From a virus: a DNA stretch of 21,692 nucleotides. A program made the position numbers and the translations under genes. Below the pieces are notes generated by a model that saw only the letters and a list, made by a program, of their open reading frames with translations, made no database searches and was not told the DNA's origin. Where the stretch lies: positions 1 to 21,692 of the IMG/VR virus record IMGVR_UViG_3300046804_006191. One strand, given 5' to 3'. Below are positions 2,387 through 19,500 of the stretch, piece by piece; positions within the stretch are counted from its first letter, which is position 1, and each line of letters opens with the position of its first letter.

Positions 2387-2656
2387 TTAGTGATTGTGAT
2401 AAGGACAATCTTCTGGATTCAGACATTCTGGCCAGTGTGCCTTGAGTTCTTCGGGAGTTGTAGCTGAAACAATTGCAGGGTCTGCGGTAACATCTCTCAG
2501 AGTTTGTTTGCGAGCAGCAACATCAGCAACATCTCCACCTTGTTCCAGAGTTCTGATATACTCTACATCCAGAGCTTCCAGTAGTGGTTTACGAGCAACA
2601 CGAAGATTATCCTTATGGATTTCCTTCGCCTTATCCATGTTAATTCCAATAGGCAT
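2387..2656 (-). CDS. Small tail-fibre-associated protein, chaperone-like (89 aa)
   Basis: The start is taken at 2656 rather than further upstream because AAGGAG precedes it at about 10 bases and the family begins near INMDKAKEIHKDNLR. The pattern INMDKAKEIH, then ARKPLLEALDVEYIR, then ARKQTLRDV, DPAI and TTPEELKAHWP is one I associate with small genes found just after tail fibre genes in many phages and prophages, often labelled tail assembly chaperone. The role is not firmly established. The protein is largely helical. It ends with an unusual tail, CLNPEDCPYHNH, holding two Cys and two His that could bind a metal. It is paired with the 66-residue gene 14 bases upstream. Confidence 0.8.
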   Translation of the reverse strand: MPIGINMDKAKEIHKDNLRVARKPLLEALDVEYIRTLEQGGDVADVAARKQTLRDVTADPAIVSATTPEELKAHWPECLNPEDCPYHNH

Positions 2657-2670
2657 TTTAACTAATCTCC

Positions 2671-2871
2671 TTATTCTGTATATTCCCAAGCGTTTCTGAA
2701 ACTACGGTCAGATGGAATCTCCGTGACTGGTACAATCTGATATGGTTTACCGTGAGGAACGACTCTTTCTGCCAGTTCCTGAATAGTTAGGCCGGTGCCA
2801 GGAGCAGGAACGACTACAGCCACTCCACCATCATCATTTGGGTAAATAATTCTCATTGATACATCAGACAT
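2671..2871 (-). CDS. Small tail-fibre-associated protein, partner of the 89-aa protein (66 aa)
   Basis: Begins MSDVSMRIIYPNDDGGVAVV, then LTIQELAERVVPHGKPYQIV and IPSDRSFRNAWEY. This resembles small proteins located between fibre genes and the INMxKAKEIH-type gene in many phages, where the pair may help fold or attach fibres; the function is unproven. GAGG about 10 bases upstream supports the start, and a perfect TATAAATA box lies at 2897-2904. The 19-residue ORF upstream repeats its N-terminal motif. Confidence 0.8.
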   Translation of the reverse strand: MSDVSMRIIYPNDDGGVAVVVPAPGTGLTIQELAERVVPHGKPYQIVPVTEIPSDRSFRNAWEYTE

Positions 2872-2896: not shown

Positions 2897-2904
2897 TATT
2901 TATA
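2897..2904 (-). promoter_or_regulatory. T4-type late promoter for the 66/89-aa gene pair
   Basis: Perfect TATAAATA on the minus strand, 26 bases before the ATG at 2871, the same spacing as the other perfect copy at 4410-4417. It lies between the micro-ORF stop (2912) and the 66-residue gene. Confidence 0.8.
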
Positions 2905-3001: not shown

Positions 3002-3397
3002 CTACCAGAATACGGCCACTGTCAGATTATCTGTGTCCGCAATGACTTGACTGCCTGGATTTACGTAGCCAGAAACAACCGAAATAGCATTGACTGTCCT
3101 GGTCGGAGCTACGGAATATTGTGACGACCAAGGGTACAGAAAATTAGCATTTCCGTAGTCATCACCGCCTCCATGTGTCCCCAATACGCCATAGTTTGTA
3201 TCAGGGGCAGACGATGAAAAGTTTACGATGTATCTACCTGTTCCCAAATCCGTAATTGACGACACGCCTAAGCTTCTTCGTATTGCCACCGTACCAGTAC
3301 CATTAAAGTTCACCCATGCTCTAGCAACGCCTGGAAGATATAGGTTAGCAGAAGTACCGGAGGTATCTGTGATTGTGTTTACTCTTAATGTGGACAT
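3002..3397 (-). CDS. Stand-alone fibre tip-module protein, copy 3 (131 aa)
   Basis: Starts MSTLRVNTITDTSG, then ARAWVNFNGTGTVAIRRS, SSITDLGTGRYIVNF, a variable glycine- and tyrosine-rich stretch, and the end NLTVAVFW. The conserved first half matches the C-terminal module of the 753-residue fibre (4422-4753) and the two neighbouring genes; the second half differs in all four. It is probably a receptor-facing fibre accessory or tip, by inference from the match and position. GGAGG, inside the end of the preceding gene, precedes the ATG by about 10 bases; the gap to that gene's stop is 3 bases, so translation is probably coupled. Its DNA in the conserved block (CCATTAAAGTTCACCCA on the plus strand) is the same as that of the fibre gene. 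Confidence 0.8.
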   Translation of the reverse strand: MSTLRVNTITDTSGTSANLYLPGVARAWVNFNGTGTVAIRRSLGVSSITDLGTGRYIVNFSSSAPDTNYGVLGTHGGGDDYGNANFLYPWSSQYSVAPTRTVNAISVVSGYVNPGSQVIADTDNLTVAVFW

Positions 3398-3400
3398 ACG

Positions 3401-3787
3401 TTAGTAGCCTCCGAGTACTGCGACGTAAATTCCGCTGCTGTCTTGCCGAGTGCCAACGGCTGACTGGACGCAGCCAATAGGCGTCGATCCAGTGGTTATT
3501 GTATTGGCAACAGCAGATTGGTTGGTTATGTGAGTGAAATTTGTACTGGAGTTAGTGACGCCGCATACACAATAATTCGTGTTCGCCAAGGCCGTCTGGA
3601 AGTTCACGGTGTAGTCGCCCGTCCCGTTATCCGTTATCGACGACACATTATAACTATCCCGTATTGCGACAGTACCCGTGCCGTTGAAATTCACCCAGGC
3701 AGTCGCAGCACCGCGATAGAGCCGGTCCTGGGTGACTCCCTGTGAACCAGCAGTAGATTGTATTGTACCTACTCGTAATACACTCAT
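3401..3787 (-). CDS. Stand-alone fibre tip-module protein, copy 2 (128 aa)
   Basis: Starts MSVLRVGTIQSTAGS, then TAWVNFNGTGTVAIRDS and VSSITDNGTGDYTVNF, a variable second half containing two cysteines in NYCVCG and a third further on, and the end IYVAVLGGY. It has the same conserved-variable-conserved plan as its two neighbours and the fibre tail. The gene is visibly richer in G and C than the fibre gene (35 of 60 at 3421-3480, against 22 of 60 at 4801-4860). The start has a purine-rich GGGAA about 12 bases upstream. No promoter is visible; it is probably transcribed from 4410-4417. Confidence 0.8.
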   Translation of the reverse strand: MSVLRVGTIQSTAGSQGVTQDRLYRGAATAWVNFNGTGTVAIRDSYNVSSITDNGTGDYTVNFQTALANTNYCVCGVTNSSTNFTHITNQSAVANTITTGSTPIGCVQSAVGTRQDSSGIYVAVLGGY

Positions 3788-3831
3788 GATTGATTATTCC
3801 CATTTAATTCTCGTGTAGACATGGCGATTAC

Positions 3832-4161
3832 CTAGCGGAAGACGGCGACACAGATATTAGAATAGTCACCGTTCCCAGTGCTATATCTACCGTGACTAAA
3901 ACGAATTGAACCCGCGGCCTGAGTCGCGCTACCAACGCTAAACTCTGTCTGTCCACTACCTATGAACGAATAATTCGCATCCGCCAGTGCATTTGTGAAA
4001 TTCACGGTGTAGTCACCCACACCATTGTCGGTAATGCTATTCACGTTCCCAGAGGCACGAATAGCCACCGTACCAGTGCCGTTGAAATTGACCCACGCCC
4101 GGGCGAGGTACTGTTCAATACCCGACGTGTTCTGAATAGTATTAACTCTGAGTGTTGACAT
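3832..4161 (-). CDS. Stand-alone fibre tip-module protein, copy 1 (109 aa)
   Basis: Start at 4161 chosen over a longer frame because AAAGGA precedes this ATG by about 7 bases, the longer frame would overlap the 70-residue gene, and MSTLRVNTIQNTSG aligns with the starts of the two sister genes. Continues ARAWVNFNGTGTVAIRAS, NSITDNGVGDYTVNF, ALADANYSF, then a variable half and the end NICVAVFR. It has the highest similarity to the 128-residue copy at DNA level in the conserved block (GTGCCGTTGAAATT on the plus strand). Elevated G+C: 32 of 60 at 4021-4080. Probably a fibre tip or accessory. Confidence 0.82.
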   Translation of the reverse strand: MSTLRVNTIQNTSGIEQYLARAWVNFNGTGTVAIRASGNVNSITDNGVGDYTVNFTNALADANYSFIGSGQTEFSVGSATQAAGSIRFSHGRYSTGNGDYSNICVAVFR

Positions 4162-4171
4162 AATGATTCCT

Positions 4172-4384
4172 TTAGATAATAACCCAGTTAGCGCCACTGT
4201 TAATCGTAACTGTAATTCCACTGTTAATTGTGACTGGACCAACACTCATACTGTTGTATGTGGTTGTTACTGTATAATTTGCGGTAATGGTTGGAACTGT
4301 ATTAATAAATGGAACAGTTGTTAACTCCAAGTCACCGGTTGCTGTAATATCATTTCCACTATTTGCACCAATTACTACTGGCAT
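4172..4384 (-). CDS. Short fibre-type beta protein (70 aa)
   Basis: Begins MPVVIGANSGNDITATG and ends with three near-repeats of a beta strand pattern: TANYTVTTTYNSMSVGP, VTINSGITV, TINSGANWVII. Endings of the type GPVTI..GVTVTI..G..W are frequent at fibre C-termini and as short stand-alone genes in marine phages, so a tail-fibre accessory is the likely role. AGGAG lies 11 bases before the ATG, and a perfect late promoter lies 26 bases upstream. It is the first gene of the polycistron that includes the tip-module copies, and its stop overlaps the ribosome binding region of the next gene. Confidence 0.7.
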   Translation of the reverse strand: MPVVIGANSGNDITATGDLELTTVPFINTVPTITANYTVTTTYNSMSVGPVTINSGITVTINSGANWVII

Positions 4385-4409
4385 ATAATATTCTCCTAAT
4401 ATTCTATAT

Positions 4410-4417
4410 TATTTATA
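4410..4417 (-). promoter_or_regulatory. T4-type late promoter for the fibre-accessory cluster
   Basis: Perfect TATAAATA on the minus strand, 26 bases before the ATG at 4384 and 5 bases after the fibre gene stop. None of the three tip-module genes has a late box of its own, so this is probably their promoter. Confidence 0.8.
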
Positions 4418-4421
4418 GACA

Positions 4422-6683
4422 TCAATTAAAAATTGCTACAGAAACCATAGATAAATCCGACAAGACATTACCTTCATTATATCCAATTAATGTCAATGAT
4501 GAAGTTGTTCTCGTTGCAACATTGTCTTCAGTTATACTGGTGTAGTAAATATCACCAAATACTGGACTATAGTTAACATCTGACATTGCAGTTGTAAAAT
4601 TAACTCTATAATTTCCAGTTCCTAAATCAGTGATACTTGATACATTTCCGGCTTTTCTAATTGAAACAACTCCAGTTCCATTAAAGTTCACCCAAGCTCT
4701 AGCCAGATATAATTGTGTTCCGGATATATTGCGAATTGTATTGACTTTGATATCGGTATTGGCAATTATTGAACCAGTTACTGTTAAGTTGTTACCAACA
4801 GTGTGATTTGTACCAGTTACCATAGTAGTAGTGGATACTACAGAATTACCAGTTAGTGTACCACTGGATGTTATTGTATTTCCGGAAATTGAACCATTTG
4901 ATATGATACTGGTCCCGACAGTCAATGTATTACCGATCGAACCATTTGAAGATATGGCTAAAGAACTTCCATTTAAAGTTCCACCTGAATTAATACTTCC
5001 ACCAACACTAAGTGTATTTCCATCAAAAGTTAAATTATTTGATGTTGTAGTGGTATTTGTGGTATTATTGTATAGAATTCTATTTCCAGTTCCTACTACG
5101 TTTGTAGCTAGTGTTGATGTAGTAGAAGTTGCAGCATTTCCAGTACAAGAAGTTGAACTTCCATTGATGTTGATATTCCAAGTACCGGATGCACCAGTTC
5201 CAGTTTTTGTGACTGTATATGTAGTGTAATTTGAACTGGTGAGATATGAACCTTCCACACTATTAATTGTGCCGGATATGGATAAATCTCCCTCAATTCG
5301 AACATTATGTTTTACTGTTCCACCGGAAGTATTTGATGCAAAATTTGTTGTAAACTGAGTAGTTCCGCTAGGTGGAGTGGTATTTGGAATCCACTTAACT
5401 CCACCATTCTGACCAGCCAAAGTTTCAGTTCTTAAGTAAATACCATCGTATTGTCCTGTTCCTGCTTCGAAATGGACAATATTGGAAGTTTTACTACCAG
5501 ATACATGTAATTTAGCATCAGTTACGCCATCATTTTTGATAGATACAGACCCATCTGATAGTACACGGAAACTTTCAACATTATTAGTTAAAATCCTAAG
5601 TGGCAAATTCCCCGCTTGTGTGATGTATGAACCAGTTGAATCCGTACCAAAAATAGTTTCATTTGCGGATGTTTTAGCTACAAATCGAGCATCTGTTGAT
5701 CCGGATGAAAATGAACGAATTGTATTCGTGCCTGATGTACTTACGACATCTAGTTTGAATGTAGGAACTGCACCAATGCCAGTTTTACCGAAGGAATCAA
5801 TTATTACGGAATTTGAAGGTGCACTTCCACTTATAGAAAATTTAGCAGCTGCGGGGGAATCGCCAACTGTTAGAGTCCCATCCGCCCCAATTCTAAATCT
5901 TTCCGTAGAATTATTTGTATTAATTACAAATGGGGTGAGTGCATCATTTGAATCTGGTCCAATACTGAATTCAGTCCCAGGAATATATGTTATGGATGAT
6001 GTTCCTTGAGCACCATTGACACCGCGATTAAAATTTAATTTAACATTACCGGTGGTTGATTTATTTTCAATTACTTGTGTTAATGTTCCACCATTAATAG
6101 TAGAATATACACCAAATAATGTTCCACTTACAGGAGTTCCACCAATCCCAACTTGACCGGATGAATCAATTATAATTCGGCCAGTTCCTCCAGTAGCGAA
6201 AGCTAATTGATTTGCACCGGGAGAGTATAGACCCGTATCACTGTCTCCAGTTACAAACAATCCGGGGTTAGATGAAGTACCAGCGGCAAAACTAGGAGAA
6301 CCCAAATTTGGAGCAATATCTACCCATGAACCTGCGTCATAGATATAAAATTTATTGTCATCAAAATCATACCATTGGTCTCCATTTTGTAAGGCAGAAC
6401 CATCTGGTCTTAAAGTTGGAGCGGTTGAACTGTAATTAACACCAAATACAGATTTTGCTTCAGTCCACTCGGACCCATTATATACTTTTAAAACATTAGT
6501 CGCTGGTCGATACCATAATTTCCCTGTTGATGTCGTATCTGGTTGAAGATCTGAGACAATTACTGGTGGTTGTTCTGCTGATTCCCAAGCACCCAATACA
6601 TCATTCCACACCCAACTAAGTTTGGTTGTAGTATCTGTATAAACTTGATTTGGTGTGGGACTACCCGGAAAATTCAGAGCCAT
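4422..6683 (-). CDS. Tail fibre protein with N-terminal W-repeat and C-terminal tip module (753 aa)
   Basis: The N-terminus carries three short aromatic repeats (about residues 10-33, 54-73 and 101-120), of the type GKLWYRPATNVLKVYNGSEW, likely for attachment. Residues about 130-400 show repeated fibre-shaft phrases such as GRIIIDSSGQVGIGGTP, ERFRIGADGTLTVG and ESFRVLSDGSVSI. A TKTGTGASGTWNINI segment follows near 490, then a Thr/Ser/Asn-rich region (about 510-640). The last 110 residues are the AWVNFNGTG tip module. There is no C-terminal intramolecular chaperone (S74-type) of the kind often seen with VGIG fibres. GATAAATA lies 29 bases upstream and AGGA precedes the ATG. It probably mediates host binding; the exact receptor cannot be inferred. 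Confidence 0.85.
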   Translation of the reverse strand: MALNFPGSPTPNQVYTDTTTKLSWVWNDVLGAWESAEQPPVIVSDLQPDTTSTGKLWYRPATNVLKVYNGSEWTEAKSVFGVNYSSTAPTLRPDGSALQNGDQWYDFDDNKFYIYDAGSWVDIAPNLGSPSFAAGTSSNPGLFVTGDSDTGLYSPGANQLAFATGGTGRIIIDSSGQVGIGGTPVSGTLFGVYSTINGGTLTQVIENKSTTGNVKLNFNRGVNGAQGTSSITYIPGTEFSIGPDSNDALTPFVINTNNSTERFRIGADGTLTVGDSPAAAKFSISGSAPSNSVIIDSFGKTGIGAVPTFKLDVVSTSGTNTIRSFSSGSTDARFVAKTSANETIFGTDSTGSYITQAGNLPLRILTNNVESFRVLSDGSVSIKNDGVTDAKLHVSGSKTSNIVHFEAGTGQYDGIYLRTETLAGQNGGVKWIPNTTPPSGTTQFTTNFASNTSGGTVKHNVRIEGDLSISGTINSVEGSYLTSSNYTTYTVTKTGTGASGTWNININGSSTSCTGNAATSTTSTLATNVVGTGNRILYNNTTNTTTTSNNLTFDGNTLSVGGSINSGGTLNGSSLAISSNGSIGNTLTVGTSIISNGSISGNTITSSGTLTGNSVVSTTTMVTGTNHTVGNNLTVTGSIIANTDIKVNTIRNISGTQLYLARAWVNFNGTGVVSIRKAGNVSSITDLGTGNYRVNFTTAMSDVNYSPVFGDIYYTSITEDNVATRTTSSLTLIGYNEGNVLSDLSMVSVAIFN

Positions 6684-6710
6684 TCTGTTTTATCCTACTT
6701 CTTTTCGATA

Positions 6711-6896
6711 CTATTTATCTATAAGTTTAATTAATAAAGTCTTAATTTCATTCAGTTCATTTTCTATTGAACTTACTTTATTTGACAATTCAATATTACT
6801 CAAAGCATTTTTTTTAGACATCAAATATTGTTCATAAGAACTTTTATCTGTATTAATAATTGCATTCGAAGATGGGTCTCTTTTTAAATTATGCAT
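6711..6896 (-). CDS. Small coiled-coil protein (61 aa), probably structural
   Basis: Starts MHNLKRDPSSNAIINTDKSS. The second half, IELSNKVSSIENELNEIKTLLIKL (about residues 36-59), has hydrophobic residues at heptad spacing and should form a coiled coil. Small proteins with this NLKRD....AIINTD start occur next to tail genes in T4-like marine phages as I recall, with no assigned function. It may be a minor virion or assembly factor that trimerises with the fibre next door. GGA lies about 9 bases upstream. It lies directly after a strong terminator with no convincing promoter of its own. Confidence 0.75.
   Translation of the reverse strand: MHNLKRDPSSNAIINTDKSSYEQYLMSKKNALSNIELSNKVSSIENELNEIKTLLIKLIDK
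6712..6719 (-). promoter_or_regulatory. Late promoter box for the tail fibre gene
   Basis: GATAAATA on the minus strand, 29 bases before the fibre ATG. It is formed by the final codons of the 61-residue gene (Asp-Lys-stop). One mismatch from TATAAATA. Confidence 0.55.
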
Positions 6897-6916
6897 AACG
6901 TATCCAATAATTAGAA

Positions 6917-6944
6917 AAAAGAGAGTGATTAATCACTCTCTTTT
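6917..6944 (-). terminator. Strong intrinsic terminator after the DUF4815 gene
   Basis: AAAAGAGAGTGATT/AATCACTCTCTTTT is a perfect 28-bp palindrome. On the minus strand it is followed by further T residues, giving a run of six at 6915-6920. It begins 8 bases after the stop codon at 6952 and separates the baseplate genes from the fibre cluster. Confidence 0.85.
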
Positions 6945-6951
6945 AATTTAT

Positions 6952-9900
6952 CTAGATTGTACAGATTACTCTGTAATCATCGATGATTGGAGTTAATGCT
7001 GGATTTGGAGAATTCATTACGAATTTTAGTTCAAATGAAGTAAAAGGCGTCAACCCAGAAGCAGTAAACTTGTACTCAAAGAAATTATTCCTCGATATAT
7101 TCGATGGATTAATATCATCCATGTCAGCAATTCTTACCCTTTCTGCGTTATCGGCAATTCCAGTAGAATTAAATGGAACCCAGGGAATTTCTAAGAAACT
7201 ACGAGAATCATTTTCTGAACGTGTTCTGTAGTAACATTTCAATGAATTCACATCAAATAAAACAGCACTCATTGTTAAATTAATTTGGTCACTTGGATTT
7301 TCTAATGTAAAAGTTCTGGACTTAAACTTAGCAAATGATGAACCATAATCTGGGTCAGTTTCTGGTACGTAATAGACTGAACCAGTACGTACATCACTTA
7401 CAATTGTAGCTACATTATTATCAAATACCGAACCAATCAATATAAGTTTGAATACATCAGCACCACTTGCGTGTGAAGTTGCAATAGTTCCAAACAATCC
7501 TCTAGTAACAGTTAATTGAGTGGATGTTGTACCCGTAACTTTCATTATTTCATTGTCAATAATGATGTAGTCATTTGCTACTAAGTTATGTGGAGCAACA
7601 ACAGTGACGGTGGCAGCAATAGCGGTTACAGTGCCATTCACATCTGTATTCTTTGTTGTATTTACACTATAAGCATTAGAGTTGGCATTTGGTATAATGT
7701 CACCACCATCAATTTTCTCTAATAAAACTTCTTTGGTTGAAGAATTATAAGAGATAATTTTACTGACCGAACCATTGAGTGATGTTCCATTAGTAGCACC
7801 ATATAAGTAACTACCAACAGGAAGAGATGCATTTGAACTCAATGTTAATAAAGTACGGGTGGGTCCAAAACGGTCATCGTTCTTATCTGGGTCATCGATG
7901 AGAGAACGAACTAATATAGCATTTGTTCTCTGGACATCAATTACGGGTGATAAATCAGGATTTAAACTTGAAATATTGGCAATTAATCTCAGTGATTTTT
8001 TGCCATTAAGTAAAGTAGCACCTGAATTTAAAACTTCATTATAGGTATTAGCTACCAATTGAGGAGACCTGAAATAATAATCCTGACCAGATTGAACACT
8101 AATCGGGCTATTATTTACGTAAGAACCAACTACATATCCATTATCAATACTACCACCGTTGGTTGATACTAAAGATAATTGAACAGTTGTTTCTTGGAAA
8201 TTCAAATAACTAACTTGTGGTTGAATGACTTCATATGGTAAGTTACCAGTTACGTAACAACCATATCCACCGGCAGTAACTGAAGATGTTGCAGCTGTTC
8301 CAACGTTAACATCAAACGTATAAAAATCCGAATGTAAAACAACATGTTGTTTATTAATATTGTCGATATTAATACCACCAATTGTCTGTGGATTTCCGGT
8401 TCCGGTTACTCCACCAATAACAACCAAGTCACCACGAATCAAACCGTGAGGTTGTTTGGTTCTTACTCTAATCACTGATGGATTGGCTCCAAAGAAGTCA
8501 CCAGTACCCACAGAAGAATTAGTAGTAATGGGGTCATTATCTAGGTAACTAACCTCTATAGGACTATTGTGGAATTGTACAGTAGCGGTACGAGATGTAT
8601 CAAAATTTGCTTTATACATTACATAGGTAACATCCTGTGTTTGGTCTTCAGTCCAAAGTGAAATATTTTGAGACTTAAATAGTGACCCAATAGTAGGTTG
8701 TTTATTTACAATTTCTTGTCCAGCCGTGCCATCGGATAATAACTTTCTTTCGCCAATCTTGGAAATAAAGATAGTATAGTCAACGGAAGTAGGACAATAA
8801 ACAACAAATGCGTATGTCTTGCCATTTTCCAGATAGACTGGGACATCAAAATTGAATTTAGTTGGAACTGTTCCACCTGCTGAAGTAGCAACACCCATCT
8901 CAACTGATTTACGGTCTAGTACAGAGTGTACAATTGCAGTTGCTCCAACCGATGCACCGCCGCCCACAAAAGTAACTGAGGGAGTTGATATATAACCAGA
9001 ACCGGGATTTGTGATGATTACATCGTATAATTTTCCATTACTGACTTTAGCGTAGCCAGTTGCCTGTACTCCACCGGGTAATTGAGGTGCAGAGAATTGT
9101 ACTGTAACATAATTTGAAGGCGTAATTACATCATCAAGTTCAGTATAACCAACCCCGAAATTGGTAATTTCAACACGATTTACTTTATAAGAATCATTTA
9201 CTATAGTAAATGTTCCAGCTACAGATGAAGTTCCAAATTTCAGTGTTTCTCCTGGGATGAATTCACCCACGTAATTTGATAACACTACATCATAGACTGT
9301 ATTTGAAATATTTCTGGTAGGATTAACAGAAGAACTTTCAAAAGTTATAGTTGAACGTAAGGTACCAACTGCTCCGCTGGTTTGTCCAGTTACAGTAGTT
9401 CCCCCGACAAATGTCAACGATGATGTAGTTCCAAGTAAAGAGGCCTGTACTCTGAGATAAGAATGAGGTTTTTTAAACGACTTGGCGCCTGGAATTTTAA
9501 TTTCCGTAGGACGACCACCTTCAGTCGAAGTCAAGAACACTTCAACTCCATGAACTTCACTTCTGGTACGGAAGAATAAATCAATACCAGTTACAAAACA
9601 TCCCTTGGGATTGTCATTTTCGTCAATCGTAAATGTTTGTGCAACTGGGTCACCCCATGAACCAACCTGAAGTGATGTTCTTCCTTCACGAATATCAGTA
9701 ATGGTCCTTCTATCACTCATTTGTCTTTGAGTAAAGGCAGGAACCCGTGTGGAAATAACTGTATTTTGTCTGGTTTGAATCAGACCATTTGCTGTATAAG
9801 TGTATTCGGCAAATGCTTCTAACTCCTGTTCCAATCTAGAATCGTTGATGGAAGATGTAATTCTGAACATCCTATCACCGACTTTAAATTGTCTACCAGC

Positions 9901-12900
9901 AGGAACTTCATATGATGTAAAATTGGGGTCATTTGCCAACTGAGAAGGAGTAGTTGGATATGAATTTACGTTATAGAACTTAATTTTACTAACATCTACC
10001 GGTACAATTTGATTGTACCAATTAGTACCATTAATGTTACGAACCGATGTTGGTACAAATCCAACCCCAGTTGAGGTTGTAACACCATTAACTGTATTTT
10101 GAATATCAGTTTGTTTAACATATGGTAATGGAGGAGTACCAGTTGGAATTACGAAAATACCTTGTACATTACCAAAATCATCTGTAACAATTGATTGACC
10201 AAAACCTTTTTGTTGTGAACCAATTTCAAAATTGAATATTGTTTCATTATTAACTGTGTTGGGTGAATCAGGAGAAATCCAAGAATTAACATCTTGTCCA
10301 TCAAAGAAGGCATACATTCTTGTATTTGGTTTCAACCCTGTGGCTCTAAATTTGACAATTTGTTGTCTCATGAAACGAGCCAGAGTCACATCAACCACTC
10401 TAGGTCCAAGATTAGTATCAACTGTTCTTGAATTTGCGGGGTCTAATGCAATTTGAAAACCACTTCTTTCTTGCCTGGTTTCTATTGTATCTCGGAAAAA
10501 TAGTCTAGCTAGACTACCATGTCCGTTTGCACCACCAGTAGCATCAATTACTTGTTCATTACCCGCACCTGCTCTTACTTGATTGAGGAATCTTTGTGCA
10601 GTGAAAGCACCAGAATCGCCAACCAAACCTTGTGAACGAGTAACTTCACTACGTGTAATACCAGACCAAGTGGTATTCCATTCATTCCATTGGGTATTCA
10701 GGACACCACTTGGACCTGCCATTGCAGATAAAGCATTGAATGTGGTTTCATCAATGACTCTGTTTTCTGGAATAGTATTAACATCACTCCATTCATCTAT
10801 TTCTGGTGAAATAGATAGTTCACCGGTGTATGTAAAGACAGAATATGGTTGAATATTAATAAAACCAGTTACATTTCTGTTAGCAAAAAGTTCAACATTT
10901 GTATAGGGTAGATGAATAAAATCACCTGTTCTTCTATATGAATTTTGAATTCTAACTGACTGGTCTGAAGTACTTTCCTCAAGTCTAATTTGTTGATTGA
11001 AGAAAGGTGCACGTAAATGAGTATTTACTGTATCAACCGAACACTTATATTCAGGGTCACCAGACGCTCCTGTGACATGACCACTGAAATCATCAACTAC
11101 AATACCGTTCTTGAATCTATCAAGTCCAGTTAAAGCGTCTCTTACTTGAGAAGATAATGTATTTTGTTCAAGGAGTGACAATGAAATGACTTCTTCTAAT
11201 CTACGGACACGATTGTCAATAGACTGAATATCTTTCATTGTATAACGTTGATAGTTATATGGTTTTACAACAACATCTTTAGCACTAAAAGTGTAAGCTG
11301 GAATTGATAGGTCAAATAGTCTCATTGACCCAGACAAATCAGCTGGATATTGTGGTTTTTCTGATGGAACACCCTGTACAAGAATAAAATCACCGATTGG
11401 ACTTAAGAAGATACTATCTTTTCTAGGTAGATAGTTCTCAATATCACAATCAAAAGTGGTGAATTCGACGGGCATTCTGGAGATATTACCACCAGAGAAA
11501 GTCATTGAATTAATTTCACCAACTCCATCATACAGTGGTGTCAGTGAACTAGATGGATTAACAGACGGTCTGAAATCAATACAATCTCTTAATTCTATTG
11601 TCCCAAGAATGTCACTATCATAGAATGGAATATCACCATAATCCACACCATCAGTATCTGTGTAACTATCTACTGAGAAAAAGTCACCGGTACCAGAATG
11701 TTCAAAGTAATCAAAATCAACGTATAATGGTCCGGGTGCAGGTGAATAACCCTTCTTGAGAATTAACGTAGAAACACCATAGTAATTATCGGTCTGTCCT
11801 GTATTAAGGTAATAACGTTCAGTTACATTTGTCCGTGTAGATGGATTGGTTGGATTTCCACCGGGAGTAGTTGCCGCATAAACAGAACGAAGTTTATAAG
11901 CATCAACAACACCCAATGAGATTTCACTCTTATCATATCCGGTTTCAATATAAGCAGTGTGTAGTGCATAATTTGGTTCAGAACTATTGATTGATGTTCT
12001 CTTAATTTTACGTTTAGCTCTACCGTTAATCACAGAAACCGGGGCAATCAATTTGACTTTGTAGTTACCACCAGCAGCAAATGGAAGAGTAATAGTTACT
12101 TTTTTATCACTATCACTGAATACAACATCATTAGAAGTTAATTGAACATACTTACCAGCATTGGAACCAGCAGTTGAGTCTGCAAAAGAGAAATTAAACA
12201 GAGAAACATCCGTCAAGAAAGATTCTCCCGGTGTTACTATTGTAAATGTAATAGTATTTCCACCAGCAAGACTTCCCATAAACTGACGATAAACTGTGTA
12301 ATTAATGTCAGTTGATGTTGGTACTGTTTCCAGTGTCGCTGTTGTTTGTGTTGGTAATTTGTATAACAGTGTGTTCCTATCGGCATTATTTGTCTTGGAC
12401 CGATAGACAACAACTTGGTTTTTAGTGATATTGGCTGGAATTGCAGTAGTTACATAAATTCTACCTGCCTGTTTTACTTCGCCTTGACCGACAGGTCTTG
12501 TTGCAAAGTGAACATATAACAATCTTACAGTTCCATTGTCATCTACCACGGAAAGAATATCACCCATCGACACTTCGGATGATGGGTCTTGTCCAATATC
12601 TTGACATTCAAGATATCTAGAACCAGCAATTGCCGAATAATTGGAGCCGTTACTTAGTGTAAATGAGGAAGTACGTGAAACATTCAGATATGAAAAATCT
12701 GCACTAAATTCATTATCAGAACTTGAAGCACCATATACAGACTTAACATTATCAAAAGAAAACATCTTTTGATACTCATTTACAATTACACCATAACCAG
12801 CAACTCCAGAATTAGAGTCAATTTTAGTAATTTGAATGTAACCGGGTGTACCATTATAGAAATCGTAAATTCGATTTCTACCGGCAGTGGTTAGAGTAAG

Positions 12901-15036
12901 AGTGTACCTAGAACCATTTGTAGCTTTAGTATAATGTGTATTGTTATTCAACACCAACTCTTGACCTGAGTATGTCAGAGTGATTGAAGAGGTGGGAGAA
13001 TTAGTAAAATCTGTAATTACTAATGAATCAACTTCATATATTCTTTTAACTGTTGCACTAAAAGTTCCGTCTTCAGTAATTACATTTTCACCAGATTCAA
13101 AATTTCCATTTAGATTGGAAAGAACTAGTTTATCATTATTTGTTCCGGACTCCAGAATTGCTCTGGCACGTGACCTAGAACCAATTAGAACTTTACCAGA
13201 ACTGGGAGTGCCAGATAATGAACGCACATATAAGTGAGTAAAGAATTTACCACCCTGTAAACCTAGTTTAAATTCTGATGTTTTATTTGCTTTTTGGTTG
13301 GTATCTGTAATTAGATTTGATGCTCTGAAGAATTTAGGTCTTACAATTCCAACTGGTTCCGCTGATTGTTTATATACAGAGTTAATTACACCATTACCAA
13401 TAGAACCACCAACGACATAATCGGATGTACCGGTAAGTACAATAATAGAACCACCAGAAATAGCTGCAAAGTAAATTACTTTACCTGTTCCTAGTGATGC
13501 ACCTTCTGCATATACAGTCGTATTAGTAGTAACTAAGTGATAAGTAGTCTGACACTCATTGCCAATATTTTGAGATGAGAGACCAACATATCCATCTGTA
13601 AAAGTTTTGTGAAGCTTTAACTCATTAAAAGCAGTGGAAGTGCCACCAGTTGAAATATTTTGTAAATCTGGAGTTCCGAATACATTGGTAACATAAGTAT
13701 GTTGACCTTCTGTCAATGAAACTCTTGCATTGTCTCTAAATTGGGTTGTACGGGCTTTATCATTTACAATAAAATCTGTGAGTTTGGATTCAATTTCATA
13801 ACCATTAACATATGCCTTGCCTGCACCAAGAGAAATAACAAATTTGGAATCTGCTTCCTGTTCTGTTAATCTTTCGGAGATTACACCATAATTAAAAATA
13901 ACTTTACCAGTGTCATCAAATTCGATAGTGCCATTGGCATCTTGTGTACGTACAATATTACTTACTGGAAGAGGTTCGGTTCCTTGACCATACTTACCAT
14001 CAGTTCCAATTGTAAATAGACCATCTTGGTTATTAGTATTAATCCATTCTTTTAAATCAATTGAGAATGGTTTTACTGTGTAATTGCCACTTTCATCATA
14101 TGTCCGTCTAGCTAAAGTTTCAAACAACCATTTAAATTGTGTTCTTTCAACTTTATTTTGTAATACACCATTCACAACTCTGGCAATTTCAACAAAATTT
14201 TCATCGATTTCTGTTAAACCACGGAAAGTTAGAGTGGGTCTAATTGAAAATCGATGTGCACCGGGAGCCGAAAAATTACTGTATCCCTGTGCATTATCAA
14301 ATAGTGAATTATCTTCTTCTGGACCAATTAACAATTCATTTACAGCAAAACCAATTTTTCCAGTTGGTTTTGTATGGAATTTTGACAAAATAATTGCATC
14401 GTCATCGACACGAACCATGAACCCACGGAGAAAATATATGCCACTCTTAATTTCAAAATATGAACCACTGCCCTGAACAGAACTATTTTCATTAAAAGTG
14501 GTTATAACTGTTCCAGAGTTATCAAACAAATTGTATTTTATTGTGGTTGGTGCAGTTACGTTGGATACACCTACGACTGCAGTCAATCCATCGGGATGGT
14601 CAGAAAATAAAGTTTCGCCTTCGGTGAAGGTTTTACTTGCGGTGTCATTACCCGATGAAATATATTGAACAAAAAATACAACACTTTCAGTATCTGTTTG
14701 TTCTTCTGTTAATAAAATTTTAGCTTTTACACCAGAAGTTTCACCTGTTATAATACATCCTTTATAATCGGAGGCAGAATAACTACTAGTAATTCTGGAA
14801 ATTTTTACATAATCAGCGTTATTAACATATTTTACTTCACCCGGAATAACCATCTGGCCTTCCTTGAAAATCCCAGACCCTAGATTTTCTATCTGAGACT
14901 GTAAAATATCCTGTAATTGTGTTAATTCTCTTGCTTGAACTGCATATCCAGAACGAAATAAAATTTTATAAAAATTTTTCAGACTATTATAGTCATCAAA
15001 ATAAGGACTGATGTTTAGATTAGTTCTTTGTGCCAT
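6952..15036 (-). CDS. Giant DUF4815-type baseplate/fibre-connector protein (2694 aa)
   Basis: The N-terminus MAQRTNLNISPYFDDYNSLK with QARELTQLQDILQSQIENLG (residues 35-54) is the signature of DUF4815-type virion proteins of T4-like marine phages. Further family features are a coiled stretch around RVRRLEEVISLSLLEQNTL (about 1275-1293) followed by LDRFKNGIVVDDFSGH, and late segments YLENGKTYAFVVYCP and GSLFKSQNISLWTEDQTQD. GxGY modules occur near 1950-2035 (GVGYTELDD, NPGSGYISTPSVTFVGGG). It lies directly after gp8, where T4 carries gp9 and gp10, so a role linking the baseplate wedge to fibres is a fair inference. It is far longer than T4 gp10 (602). No catalytic motif is seen. The ribosome binding site is weak (GGAA 4-5 bases before the ATG); a poor late box, CCTAAATA, lies at 15073-15080. 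Confidence 0.85.
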   Translation of the reverse strand: MAQRTNLNISPYFDDYNSLKNFYKILFRSGYAVQARELTQLQDILQSQIENLGSGIFKEGQMVIPGEVKYVNNADYVKISRITSSYSASDYKGCIITGETSGVKAKILLTEEQTDTESVVFFVQYISSGNDTASKTFTEGETLFSDHPDGLTAVVGVSNVTAPTTIKYNLFDNSGTVITTFNENSSVQGSGSYFEIKSGIYFLRGFMVRVDDDAIILSKFHTKPTGKIGFAVNELLIGPEEDNSLFDNAQGYSNFSAPGAHRFSIRPTLTFRGLTEIDENFVEIARVVNGVLQNKVERTQFKWLFETLARRTYDESGNYTVKPFSIDLKEWINTNNQDGLFTIGTDGKYGQGTEPLPVSNIVRTQDANGTIEFDDTGKVIFNYGVISERLTEQEADSKFVISLGAGKAYVNGYEIESKLTDFIVNDKARTTQFRDNARVSLTEGQHTYVTNVFGTPDLQNISTGGTSTAFNELKLHKTFTDGYVGLSSQNIGNECQTTYHLVTTNTTVYAEGASLGTGKVIYFAAISGGSIIVLTGTSDYVVGGSIGNGVINSVYKQSAEPVGIVRPKFFRASNLITDTNQKANKTSEFKLGLQGGKFFTHLYVRSLSGTPSSGKVLIGSRSRARAILESGTNNDKLVLSNLNGNFESGENVITEDGTFSATVKRIYEVDSLVITDFTNSPTSSITLTYSGQELVLNNNTHYTKATNGSRYTLTLTTAGRNRIYDFYNGTPGYIQITKIDSNSGVAGYGVIVNEYQKMFSFDNVKSVYGASSSDNEFSADFSYLNVSRTSSFTLSNGSNYSAIAGSRYLECQDIGQDPSSEVSMGDILSVVDDNGTVRLLYVHFATRPVGQGEVKQAGRIYVTTAIPANITKNQVVVYRSKTNNADRNTLLYKLPTQTTATLETVPTSTDINYTVYRQFMGSLAGGNTITFTIVTPGESFLTDVSLFNFSFADSTAGSNAGKYVQLTSNDVVFSDSDKKVTITLPFAAGGNYKVKLIAPVSVINGRAKRKIKRTSINSSEPNYALHTAYIETGYDKSEISLGVVDAYKLRSVYAATTPGGNPTNPSTRTNVTERYYLNTGQTDNYYGVSTLILKKGYSPAPGPLYVDFDYFEHSGTGDFFSVDSYTDTDGVDYGDIPFYDSDILGTIELRDCIDFRPSVNPSSSLTPLYDGVGEINSMTFSGGNISRMPVEFTTFDCDIENYLPRKDSIFLSPIGDFILVQGVPSEKPQYPADLSGSMRLFDLSIPAYTFSAKDVVVKPYNYQRYTMKDIQSIDNRVRRLEEVISLSLLEQNTLSSQVRDALTGLDRFKNGIVVDDFSGHVTGASGDPEYKCSVDTVNTHLRAPFFNQQIRLEESTSDQSVRIQNSYRRTGDFIHLPYTNVELFANRNVTGFINIQPYSVFTYTGELSISPEIDEWSDVNTIPENRVIDETTFNALSAMAGPSGVLNTQWNEWNTTWSGITRSEVTRSQGLVGDSGAFTAQRFLNQVRAGAGNEQVIDATGGANGHGSLARLFFRDTIETRQERSGFQIALDPANSRTVDTNLGPRVVDVTLARFMRQQIVKFRATGLKPNTRMYAFFDGQDVNSWISPDSPNTVNNETIFNFEIGSQQKGFGQSIVTDDFGNVQGIFVIPTGTPPLPYVKQTDIQNTVNGVTTSTGVGFVPTSVRNINGTNWYNQIVPVDVSKIKFYNVNSYPTTPSQLANDPNFTSYEVPAGRQFKVGDRMFRITSSINDSRLEQELEAFAEYTYTANGLIQTRQNTVISTRVPAFTQRQMSDRRTITDIREGRTSLQVGSWGDPVAQTFTIDENDNPKGCFVTGIDLFFRTRSEVHGVEVFLTSTEGGRPTEIKIPGAKSFKKPHSYLRVQASLLGTTSSLTFVGGTTVTGQTSGAVGTLRSTITFESSSVNPTRNISNTVYDVVLSNYVGEFIPGETLKFGTSSVAGTFTIVNDSYKVNRVEITNFGVGYTELDDVITPSNYVTVQFSAPQLPGGVQATGYAKVSNGKLYDVIITNPGSGYISTPSVTFVGGGASVGATAIVHSVLDRKSVEMGVATSAGGTVPTKFNFDVPVYLENGKTYAFVVYCPTSVDYTIFISKIGERKLLSDGTAGQEIVNKQPTIGSLFKSQNISLWTEDQTQDVTYVMYKANFDTSRTATVQFHNSPIEVSYLDNDPITTNSSVGTGDFFGANPSVIRVRTKQPHGLIRGDLVVIGGVTGTGNPQTIGGINIDNINKQHVVLHSDFYTFDVNVGTAATSSVTAGGYGCYVTGNLPYEVIQPQVSYLNFQETTVQLSLVSTNGGSIDNGYVVGSYVNNSPISVQSGQDYYFRSPQLVANTYNEVLNSGATLLNGKKSLRLIANISSLNPDLSPVIDVQRTNAILVRSLIDDPDKNDDRFGPTRTLLTLSSNASLPVGSYLYGATNGTSLNGSVSKIISYNSSTKEVLLEKIDGGDIIPNANSNAYSVNTTKNTDVNGTVTAIAATVTVVAPHNLVANDYIIIDNEIMKVTGTTSTQLTVTRGLFGTIATSHASGADVFKLILIGSVFDNNVATIVSDVRTGSVYYVPETDPDYGSSFAKFKSRTFTLENPSDQINLTMSAVLFDVNSLKCYYRTRSENDSRSFLEIPWVPFNSTGIADNAERVRIADMDDINPSNISRNNFFEYKFTASGLTPFTSFELKFVMNSPNPALTPIIDDYRVICTI

Positions 15037-16577: not shown

Positions 16578-16585
16578 TATTTATT
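16578..16585 (-). promoter_or_regulatory. Late promoter box for gp8
   Basis: AATAAATA on the minus strand, 7 of 8 matches to the T4 late box, 23 bases before the gp8 ATG. It overlaps the stop codon of gp7. Confidence 0.6.
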
Positions 16586-19500
16586 GGAGGACAACATCTG
16601 TTTCTATGAATGTCTGAAATACATTTATCGTACTCTTGAGAGATAACTGACCGAACATGATATATCCAGTGGGATGAGTATTCTTCAATACATAATTTCG
16701 ATATTCACTGGGTCTAACTTCACTATCAATAACATAACTAAAATTCTGATAATAATAACTATCAGTTAATCTTGAATAAGATTCACTTAGTAAGTTCATA
16801 TCAGTCACAAATTCAGAACCAAGAGTTACTTTAGAACCAGTTCTGGAAAGAAGAATAGGCATTTCAACCTGAAGTATTTTTGCGGTTGCAACCTGAAACT
16901 CGAATAATTTTCCGTAATCATCGTCTTCGGTTGCCAAATCATTAATTAATCCATAATCCTCTGTTGACTCTTCGGTTTCAGTGACTAATCCATAGTCCTC
17001 ACTAGTAATTAATGGAACATAGAGAGATGTAATTAACTCATTTTCCTTCAGAGACCCATTTGTTCTTTTTAGTGTTAATACTCTATTGGTCGGATCCCAA
17101 TATTTAACCAGACCAGTAAAATTGCCAGATGCAGATGTAACTTCTGCATTGATATCAAATGTTCCTACGACATCATAAACAGTAACATTTAAGTCTAATT
17201 CAAATGAAGGGACAATTGTTGGGTCTGAATTTTGAAATGCACCAACAGTATAAAGAATATCAGAAGTATATCCACCTATACTATTACTCTTTGCTATCAA
17301 TATATTACTAGTATCGACAATTAGAATTTTATCTGTTGATTTGTATCCTTTTCCACCAAGAATCACATCAATTGATTCAATACTTCCATTTACAACATTG
17401 ATATCAAATGTTGCATCTGTTCCAGTATTTGTTAAAACTTCAACTTTTGGATTCGAATATCTAGCACCACCGTAAATGGTAGCTACAGATATAATTGCTC
17501 CTTCTTCGTCAACTTCGATAGAATGAATTGACCGGTCGATTTCTCTAGGATAGATTCCAGTAATTGATGGAAGATATTTGATATTTTGACCAGATGAGGT
17601 AACTTCTATTCTACCAACTGGACCAATCACAGATGAGGATGATGTGATGAAATAATAATTTCCGCTTGCCATCATAATTTCTGTGTATTTTGTCAACAAA
17701 TTGGCAGTCAATGAGATACTGTAATCATAGGCACCTTCACCGGGTTTTGTTCCGACTGGTGTAGCTACAACCCATTTGGAATCATATCTAATGTAAAGTA
17801 CACCTGTTATAGAAGACCACCACAAATCACCATCTGTAACCGGGTTATCGATGGCATTGACAGGTGGATACTCGGAAACAGTTACCACTGCTTGTTTTTG
17901 TATACCAGTCCCAGTTCCATATGAAATATCGGGAGCAATTGCACCTTCATCACTTCTACCAGAAATACCAGTTGGAGTTGCTGGTACCCATATGCCGTCT
18001 TGTGTTGATGACTTATAGTAAACATATAAGAAACCAGAAGAAGATGACCACCAAAGGTCGCCTTTTTTCAAGGCAGATAAATCAATTCTTGTACTTGGAG
18101 CAACATCGGAAATAATTATCTGGTCTCCATTTAAACCAGTTGGAGAAATATTGAGGTCTCCACCTGAAACAGAAACAATTTCATCATTCAATAATCTGGG
18201 AACAACACCTGTTGGTGAAGCTAACACCCATTGATTACTATCGGTATCATTATAACGAACGTATAACATACCACTGAGAGTTGACCACCAAAGAGTACCT
18301 TCGGTAGGATTTGTCAGAAAATATGGTTTGGTCGAAGTAATATAAGCCAACCCTCTATCTGGGTCAGTTATGGGTTCATTCAGGATAAACTGAATATCTT
18401 CCTTCGATAATTTTTTATAACAAACGAACCTTGTTTCAGATTCTATTAAATCTATATTCAGTTGACCATTAAAAATATTTGGTACTGCGTCGATTATTTC
18501 TATCAAATCACCTTCTTTCATGTTGTGAGGAACTGTTGTATCTACAATAACAGCCAATCTAGTTAAATTGGTTACCGATGTTCCTCTTGCAATTGGAGGA
18601 TTAACATTAGTATCTCTTATAACTTTGAGTACATTATCTTCTAGAATTTCAACCAATTCAACAACTTCATCTCCAACACGAATTATATCACCACCATAAA
18701 AACTAGAACTATCGGTTACTGGTATTAGGGTCGAATTTTCATTGATATCCGGAGTAGTTATACTCAAAATCTTACATTTGGAATTGACCAAATCTGGAAA
18801 AATATCATCAAGTTCAGTGTCAATTGTTCCCAATACACGAATTCCCAATGTAACCGTTGATGAATCCCATGTAATTACTTTAAACGAACATCCTCTTTCA
18901 GTAACAAATGTTCTTCCAACAATAAAAGCATAAACCGGTGACAGTCTTTTATCGCCAGTCCCCGTAGACTCAATAGAAACTTTCGTATCTAATTTCCAGT
19001 CGTCAATAGTTTTATGTAAAGAAATAGTTAAGTTGTTAACTACTTTAATAAAGTATGCACGATTATCTTCCAAACCATCGGGAATATTTCCATTGATATT
19101 AGAAAATACCATACGAGAACCATTAACAATTCCGTGTGGTGTTGCAAATTCAATATAATCTCCTATTAAATTGATATCACTTGATGTAAAATTCCGATTG
19201 GTGTTATCAAAAGTAATATTTTGGTCACGTAATATCACATCTACGTTAGGTATAGCTATATTGAGCGAAGAAATTTCTTCACCGACTACCCAACTAACGA
19301 CGGCTTCACACCCTTTATCTTCACCCAGCTGGGTATTAGGATAATGAAATCTACATAAGTCACCTACTACATATGAACCGTCAGATGCATCTACATATAC
19401 ATCATCCAAAACACCAGAAGTTACATCTGTAAGCCTACCAGTCACATCTAATGTAAAAAGATTATTATAGTTTAAATTATAATTTCTTATTACATATGAA

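Follow-up and report, generated by a model that had tools for sequence, protein, structure and literature searches.

A putative rack of small fibre-tip adhesins with replaceable distal halves in a contractile-tailed phage

Exchange of host-binding parts is well known among phages, mostly at the level of whole genes. The gp38 adhesin of T2- and T6-like phages is a small separate tip protein encoded beside the fibre gene; its N-terminus attaches to the fibre, and conserved scaffold motifs alternate with hypervariable segments that decide the receptor (PMC10844046). In the Alteromonas phages A5 and V22 a receptor-binding gene and its cognate chaperone travel between distantly related phages (PMC10579305), and marine phages that are nearly identical elsewhere vary in the host-recognition genes of their metaviromic islands (PMC3909814). 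Here we describe a locus in the virus record IMGVR_UViG_3300046804_006191, a 21,692-base fragment of a contractile-tailed phage that was analysed at its full length (the window). The end module of its tail fibre recurs in three small stand-alone genes, and in related phages the distal halves of such modules are repeatedly replaced between conserved surroundings. On balance, the locus is probably a rack of small fibre-tip adhesins, replaced distally by recombination and displayed together.

The tip module and its copies

The fibre, its terminal module and the genes that follow it on the minus strand are as follows.

4422-6683, minus strand: tail fibre, 753 residues, ending in a copy of the tip module (last ~110 residues, 4422-4754); matches phrog_11355 at residues 643-708 (E 1.4e-16) and also the tail-fibre family phrog_18345
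4422-4754, minus strand: fibre-fused tip module with N-terminal anchor IKVNTIRNISGTQLYLAR, defined by module alignment (module match E 3.9e-26)
4172-4384, minus strand: p70, 70 residues, a stand-alone copy of a different fibre-end motif (GPVTINSGITVTINSGANWVII), between the fibre and s1
3832-4161, minus strand: s1, stand-alone tip module, 109 residues (phrog_11355, E 1.1e-16)
3401-3787, minus strand: s2, stand-alone tip module, 128 residues (phrog_11355, E 2.2e-22)
3002-3397, minus strand: s3, stand-alone tip module, 131 residues (phrog_11355, E 4e-17)

The start of s1 is an ATG; the listed GTG start at 4245 merely gives the longest frame. Searching with s1 retrieved the other three modules at E 3.9e-26, 2.4e-21 and 3.0e-21, so their likeness is not due to chance. 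A first-pass annotation of the letters alone had proposed that the fibre-end module is followed by three stand-alone copies. The recurrence is borne out and the modules lie in tandem, but p70 separates the fibre from s1.

The module is about 90 residues long and consists of a conserved core of about 44 residues, a distal stretch that differs between copies, and a conserved end strand. The core (AWVNFNG...NY, 44 residues) is 66-80% identical between copies. The middle had been described as different in each copy, and the parts beyond the core are indeed only weakly alike, with 13-18 identities over 44-61 residues (z 0.8-4.8 against shuffles). A VAVF- or VAIF-like strand closes all four copies, again as described. 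When the modules were aligned at both levels, the shared blocks proved to be conserved as protein, but the core DNA was just 55-67% identical; the longest exact DNA matches between the four cores were 5-17 nucleotides. All four modules match PHROG 11355 'tail fiber protein' (E 1.4e-16 to 2.2e-22). None has a match in Pfam, and a sequence search of solved structures found no relative of the module.

An AlphaFold2 model of the s1 monomer (predicted local distance difference test score 78, predicted template modelling score 0.60) was confident from about residue 40 on and formed a beta-sandwich. The N-terminal third was poorly defined in the model, as would be expected if it formed only within a trimer. 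The top match in the PDB was the phiAB6 tailspike, residues 464-563 (Z 7.5 over 77 residues, 2.6 A). The Pam1 tailspike, residues 688-758, scored Z 5.3. S-layer domains score equally, and the fold alone therefore shows no function. Viral models resembling s1 were small phage proteins and fibre ends, including the C-termini of cyanophage tail fibres.

Replacement of distal halves in related phages

To survey the family, we collected 290 loci with four queries, one of which matched at least 594 viral-contig stretches, and merged them to about 200 contig groups containing 356 modules. Loci were picked by similarity to this window; the counts are lower bounds, and the shares should not be extended to phages in general. 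The module formed the end of its open reading frame (ORF) in 356 of 357 cases, with a tail (the part beyond the core) of 40-69 residues. Two to seven copies were present in 101 of the 200 contig groups. Cultured carriers include cyanophages, vibriophages, rhizobiophages and HMO-2011, and 27 loci lie in bacterial genomes, mostly of Pseudomonadota. All 109 aligned modules of relatives match both PHROG 11355 and the C-terminal part of PHROG 3484. Median identity across the survey was 0.76 for the core and 0.21 for the tail, the latter compared with 0.19 for shuffled tails. Recent duplication inside a genome was considered and rejected, as cores within a contig are no closer (0.73 identical) than cores of different contigs (0.76).

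A whole-window megablast of the phage collection was empty, and queries with the neck protein and the fibre shaft found distant phages only, without the module within reach. Since close relatives of the window phage were not found, exchange was tested on other lineages. Modules at the same position were compared in related phages whose 300-nucleotide flanks were both more than 75% identical in DNA; near-identical contigs were kept. Among 40 such pairs, spread over 19 independent locus clusters, 37 had tails at the random level of similarity, one was intermediate and two had kept the same tail. Tail DNA identity averaged 0.52 in same-position pairs and 0.51 in random pairs.

Individual pairs show where the replaced segments end. 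L027 and L030 are 97-100% identical up to just before the core of the second module, and again from its stop codon onward. L204 and L223 (module ORFs at 1042 and 3849, respectively) are 99-100% identical except for a patch running from mid-core to the last codons, where identity is 72% and substitutions are of all kinds. This looks like recombination with a related allele, a partial replacement with sharp ends. Tips also recur in other settings. Twelve pairs of tips are 54-98% identical behind N-terminal segments that are less than 40% identical. The tip at position 3 of L036 is that at position 1 of L061 (94% DNA identity), from mid-core exactly to the stop codon; sequence on both sides of the shared tip is unrelated, and the surroundings of the two contigs are about 93% identical.

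We take tip swapping, as read from these comparisons, to be real across the family. The first-pass annotation had suggested swapping by recombination between conserved DNA blocks, and the idea of swapping is upheld family-wide: tails are replaced between alike flanks, and tips appear on other N-termini, pass between short stand-alone and longer fibre-type ORFs and, in close relatives, move from slot to slot. Exchange boundaries are indeed located within the core and at the terminal strand or stop codon. The core, however, has little synonymous conservation: sameness at third bases is 0.26-0.40, with 0.27 expected, which gives little evidence that core DNA is conserved as a recombination site, and we rejected that idea. 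The exchange probably uses the ordinary recombination of phages, acting on cores of moderate similarity and on the shared end.

Ordered positions, partner genes and rival explanations

The N-terminal segments of the short ORFs fall into types on clustering. The order of these types along the contigs agreed in 90 of 94 comparisons (0.957; 1000 shuffles averaged 0.676 and went no higher than 0.798), an agreement to which common descent contributes. Tails were independent of N-terminal type, with an identity of 0.21 in both classes. As far as these comparisons go, the pattern shows stable positions and variable tips. The s1 anchor is the commonest first-position type and the closest to the anchor of the fibre-fused module; the anchors of s3 and s2 are similar to two types that follow one another in L035, L173 and L175.

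Two further genes accompany the modules, and promoter-like sites divide the locus.

2671-2871, minus strand: g66, 66 residues, conserved partner (MRIIYPNDDGGVAVVVP...), downstream of s3; without a fold match
2387-2656, minus strand: g100, ~89 residues, probable tail-fibre assembly chaperone, downstream of g66
4410-4417, minus strand: T4-late-promoter-like TATAAATA, 25 nucleotides upstream of p70
2897-2904, minus strand: T4-late-promoter-like TATAAATA, 25 nucleotides upstream of g66
858-864, 2150-2156, 2897-2903, 4410-4416, 6712-6718 and 16578-16584, minus strand: ATAAATA sites, a T4-like late-promoter map of the fragment

Relatives of g66 were found at most 4 kb from the module and on the same strand in 188 of the 200 contig groups, relatives of g100 near it in 165, and p70-like ends in 145. 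The layout of module, g66 and g100 is also present in the cultured phages 9515-10a, NATL2A-133 and Vibrio phage 1.077.O. The g66 family carries the motif RIIYPNDDGGVAVVVP...DR.FRNAW; none of 83 members has a PHROG, and there is no Pfam match. No convincing match to its fold was found in the PDB; known phage chaperone folds did not turn up, which excludes nothing. Cultured phages yielded 18 g66 records, nearly all adjoining the module. Members of the g100 family match Phage_tail_APC (PF16778) weakly (19 of 50, best E 1.5e-4) and the 'tail fiber assembly' families phrog_4912 (16 of 50, best E 5.3e-6) and phrog_8746 (4 of 50); g100 of the window itself matches phrog_4912 at E 0.077 only. From these matches g100 is probably a tail-fibre assembly chaperone, and g66 may, less surely, have a role in assembly too. 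By eye, an apparent g66 C-terminal motif is joined to g100 in one ORF in two contigs (L068:3251-3610 and L022:4657-5016); such joining would suggest a joint function. p70 aligns with phrog_5342 tail fibre at 3280-3319 of 3319 and with phrog_34255 at 1001-1044 of 1044. Its motif (GPVTINSG.TVTI.SG..WVII) ends 204 long and 48 short ORFs in relatives, where it mostly closes long fibres. Which ending is fused to the fibre, the tip module or the p70 type, varies among phages.

The rest of the window holds a gp25-like baseplate wedge, a neck/adaptor protein and baseplate and fibre genes, nearly all on the minus strand. YHYH (PF14240) and DUF4815 (PF16075) domains occur in very large proteins of the baseplate region (16581-21608 and 6952-15036), and a 57-residue frame with a hydrophobic stretch lies on the plus strand at 2185-2358, between the neck gene and g100.

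The six ATAAATA sites on the minus strand of the window are all located 21-28 nucleotides upstream of a gene start, whereas 0.8% of positions fall 18-30 nucleotides upstream of one. The exact sequence TATAAATA, which we take to be that of the T4 late promoter, occurs twice, upstream of p70 and of g66. Since the next late-promoter-like site after that of p70 is that of g66, p70, s1, s2 and s3 look like a single late unit. Ribosome sites rich in purines are present ahead of p70, s1 and s3; that of s2 is weaker.

These features bear on the most serious alternative, in which the stand-alone genes are a silent cassette store, serving mainly as donors for the main fibre tip and not as virion parts. 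Movement of tips between positions in close relatives would fit such a store, as would tips common to short and longer ORFs: those of L013 (132 residues) and L063 (241 residues) have tails 88% identical, and those of L010 (129 residues) and L073 (152 residues) tails 80% identical. In the window, however, base composition separates the supposed donors from the recipient. Overall G+C is 36% (0.363), and 390-base windows outside the s1-s3 region have a mean of 0.357 (standard deviation 0.030, maximum 0.454); s3 (0.460), s1 (0.494) and s2 (0.512) all lie above this background. G+C at third codon positions is 0.40-0.53 in s1-s3 and 0.198 in the fibre tip, the latter as in the fibre body (about 0.20) and the genome alike. 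On both measures s1-s3 look foreign, and so imported, and the fibre tip looks native. No tip is shared among the four modules of this genome, and thus the swapping proposed earlier does not extend here to restocking of the phage's own fibre. Across the survey, only 3 of 238 within-contig tail pairs are at least 50% identical. The stand-alone genes have their own start codons, ribosome sites and a late-promoter-like site, together with ordered, position-specific N-termini of which a pure donor store would have no need. This favours several expressed adhesins with distinct attachment, and we regard the silent store as unlikely. The other possibility raised at the outset, several tips displayed together, is the better fit to the fixed order of N-termini and to the expression signals, with display on the virion as its predicted outcome.

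It is less likely still that the stand-alone genes are functionless leftovers of fibre-gene duplication or failed recombination. They are short, tandem and foreign in composition, as leftovers might be, but hundreds of modules have an unbroken reading frame, the N-terminal segment is conserved, as is the order, and a cultured phage can have a stand-alone gene as its sole module, as NATL2A-133 does.

Replacements might also be metagenome-assembly chimeras formed at the shared motif. The evidence comes mostly from metagenomic contigs, and the core would be a natural site for a wrong join. Against this, both flanks are kept in the 19 separate clusters, the cores of unrelated modules have too little exact DNA in common, and recurring tips are mostly 66-99% identical in DNA and so are not copies. 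The same place also differs among isolates of one genus (9515-10a, NATL2A-133 and P-SCSP-R27W): between similar flanks one of them carries a fused module and the others a stand-alone one, although these flanks are just 72-87% identical. We consider chimeras a very improbable source of the pattern.

A diversity-generating retroelement or other targeted mutator varying the tips in place would likewise confine variation to one C-terminal stretch between constant flanks, but it is very unlikely: no reverse transcriptase (PF00078) was found in the window record or in 19 contigs of relatives (all fragments), the tails differ in length (40-69 residues) and are unrelated rather than point-mutated, the changes between L204 and L223, the intermediate pair, are not A-specific and include many third-position changes of all kinds, and the same tips recur in other contexts. 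An invertible fibre cassette of the Mu/P2 type was rejected as well; within the fragment the four modules have the same orientation, and inverted repeats are short and unrelated to the module ends.

The rack of expressed, distally replaced tips would work as follows. Each stand-alone protein would be a minimal fibre, with a short, position-bound anchor at the N-terminus and a beta-sandwich tip at the C-terminus. Within the tip, the first half (AWVNFNGTG...Y.VNF...NY) would be a conserved scaffold, the second half variable and presumably receptor-binding, and the end strand would close the sandwich. On co-infection, recombination would replace the distal half, beginning somewhere inside the core and ending at the stop codon, by one from a second phage or a different position, leaving the anchor and the downstream genes unchanged. 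The stand-alone proteins would be made late, put on the virion with g100 and perhaps g66, and shown together, binding host receptors.

Several points weigh against this explanation. Replacement was seen in other lineages only, with no close relative of this phage found. HMO-2011 (by tblastn) and some other module-bearing records have no g66 match, so g66 is not obligatory. The best structural Z is below 8, from a monomer model only, and a common arrangement could still account for it. Virion display and host binding of the stand-alone proteins are properties that we infer. More tentatively, a general rack may exist in unrelated phages, in which ordered, position-specific anchors take any tip, g66 and g100 serve as a dedicated pair for assembly, and each virion carries several tips, each exchangeable alone.

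Repeated replacement of the distal half points to what may be a widespread way of changing phage host recognition. In hundreds of phages the sequence reveals which unit is exchanged, where it ends and what stays fixed around it, so the rate and source of host-range change become directly measurable. Joint display, if true, would help to account for the many hosts that aquatic phages reach by means of a single simple fold. The g66 family, lacking a PHROG or Pfam entry, provides a sequence tag for finding such loci.

Comparison with described systems

PHROG 11355 (131 residues) is itself of stand-alone size. The records of PHROG 11355 and 3484 hold a name only; they say nothing of the tandem arrangement, the types of anchor, the replacement or the partner genes. 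In the open-licence literature we found no paper with the motif AWVNFNGTG, and no description of the ordered rack, the mapped exchange unit or the partner pair.

The C-terminal domains of the phiAB6 and Pam1 tailspikes resemble the module in that an alike beta-sandwich, predicted in our case, ends a receptor-binding protein. Identity is 17-21% over the aligned part, with no detectable sequence relation.

Puniceispirillum phage HMO-2011, a cultured phage of SAR116, has a run of small fibre-like genes after its main fibre, and two places in it match the module. The sequences of these genes are divergent, and tblastn found no g66 relative. In its record (L383) the run occupies 3135-9487 and comprises about a dozen small genes in succession, most of them with a tail fibre annotation.

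The gp38 adhesins are alike in having a small separate tip gene with a conserved scaffold and a hypervariable part. They contain five glycine-rich motifs and four hypervariable segments, whereas the module has a single variable stretch between one core and an end strand. Unlike gp38, the module is present in several copies per genome and also fused to fibres, and its alignments contain no repeated glycine-rich motifs. Without a series of such motifs, identity with gp38 was rejected.

The scale of exchange also differs. In phages A5 and V22 a complete fibre travels together with one chaperone; here replacement affects only the distal half of a small tip, and the partner genes are g66 and g100. 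Metaviromic islands were described at the scale of genes, through read recruitment, whereas the unit replaced here is a segment of about 130-190 nucleotides with mapped ends.

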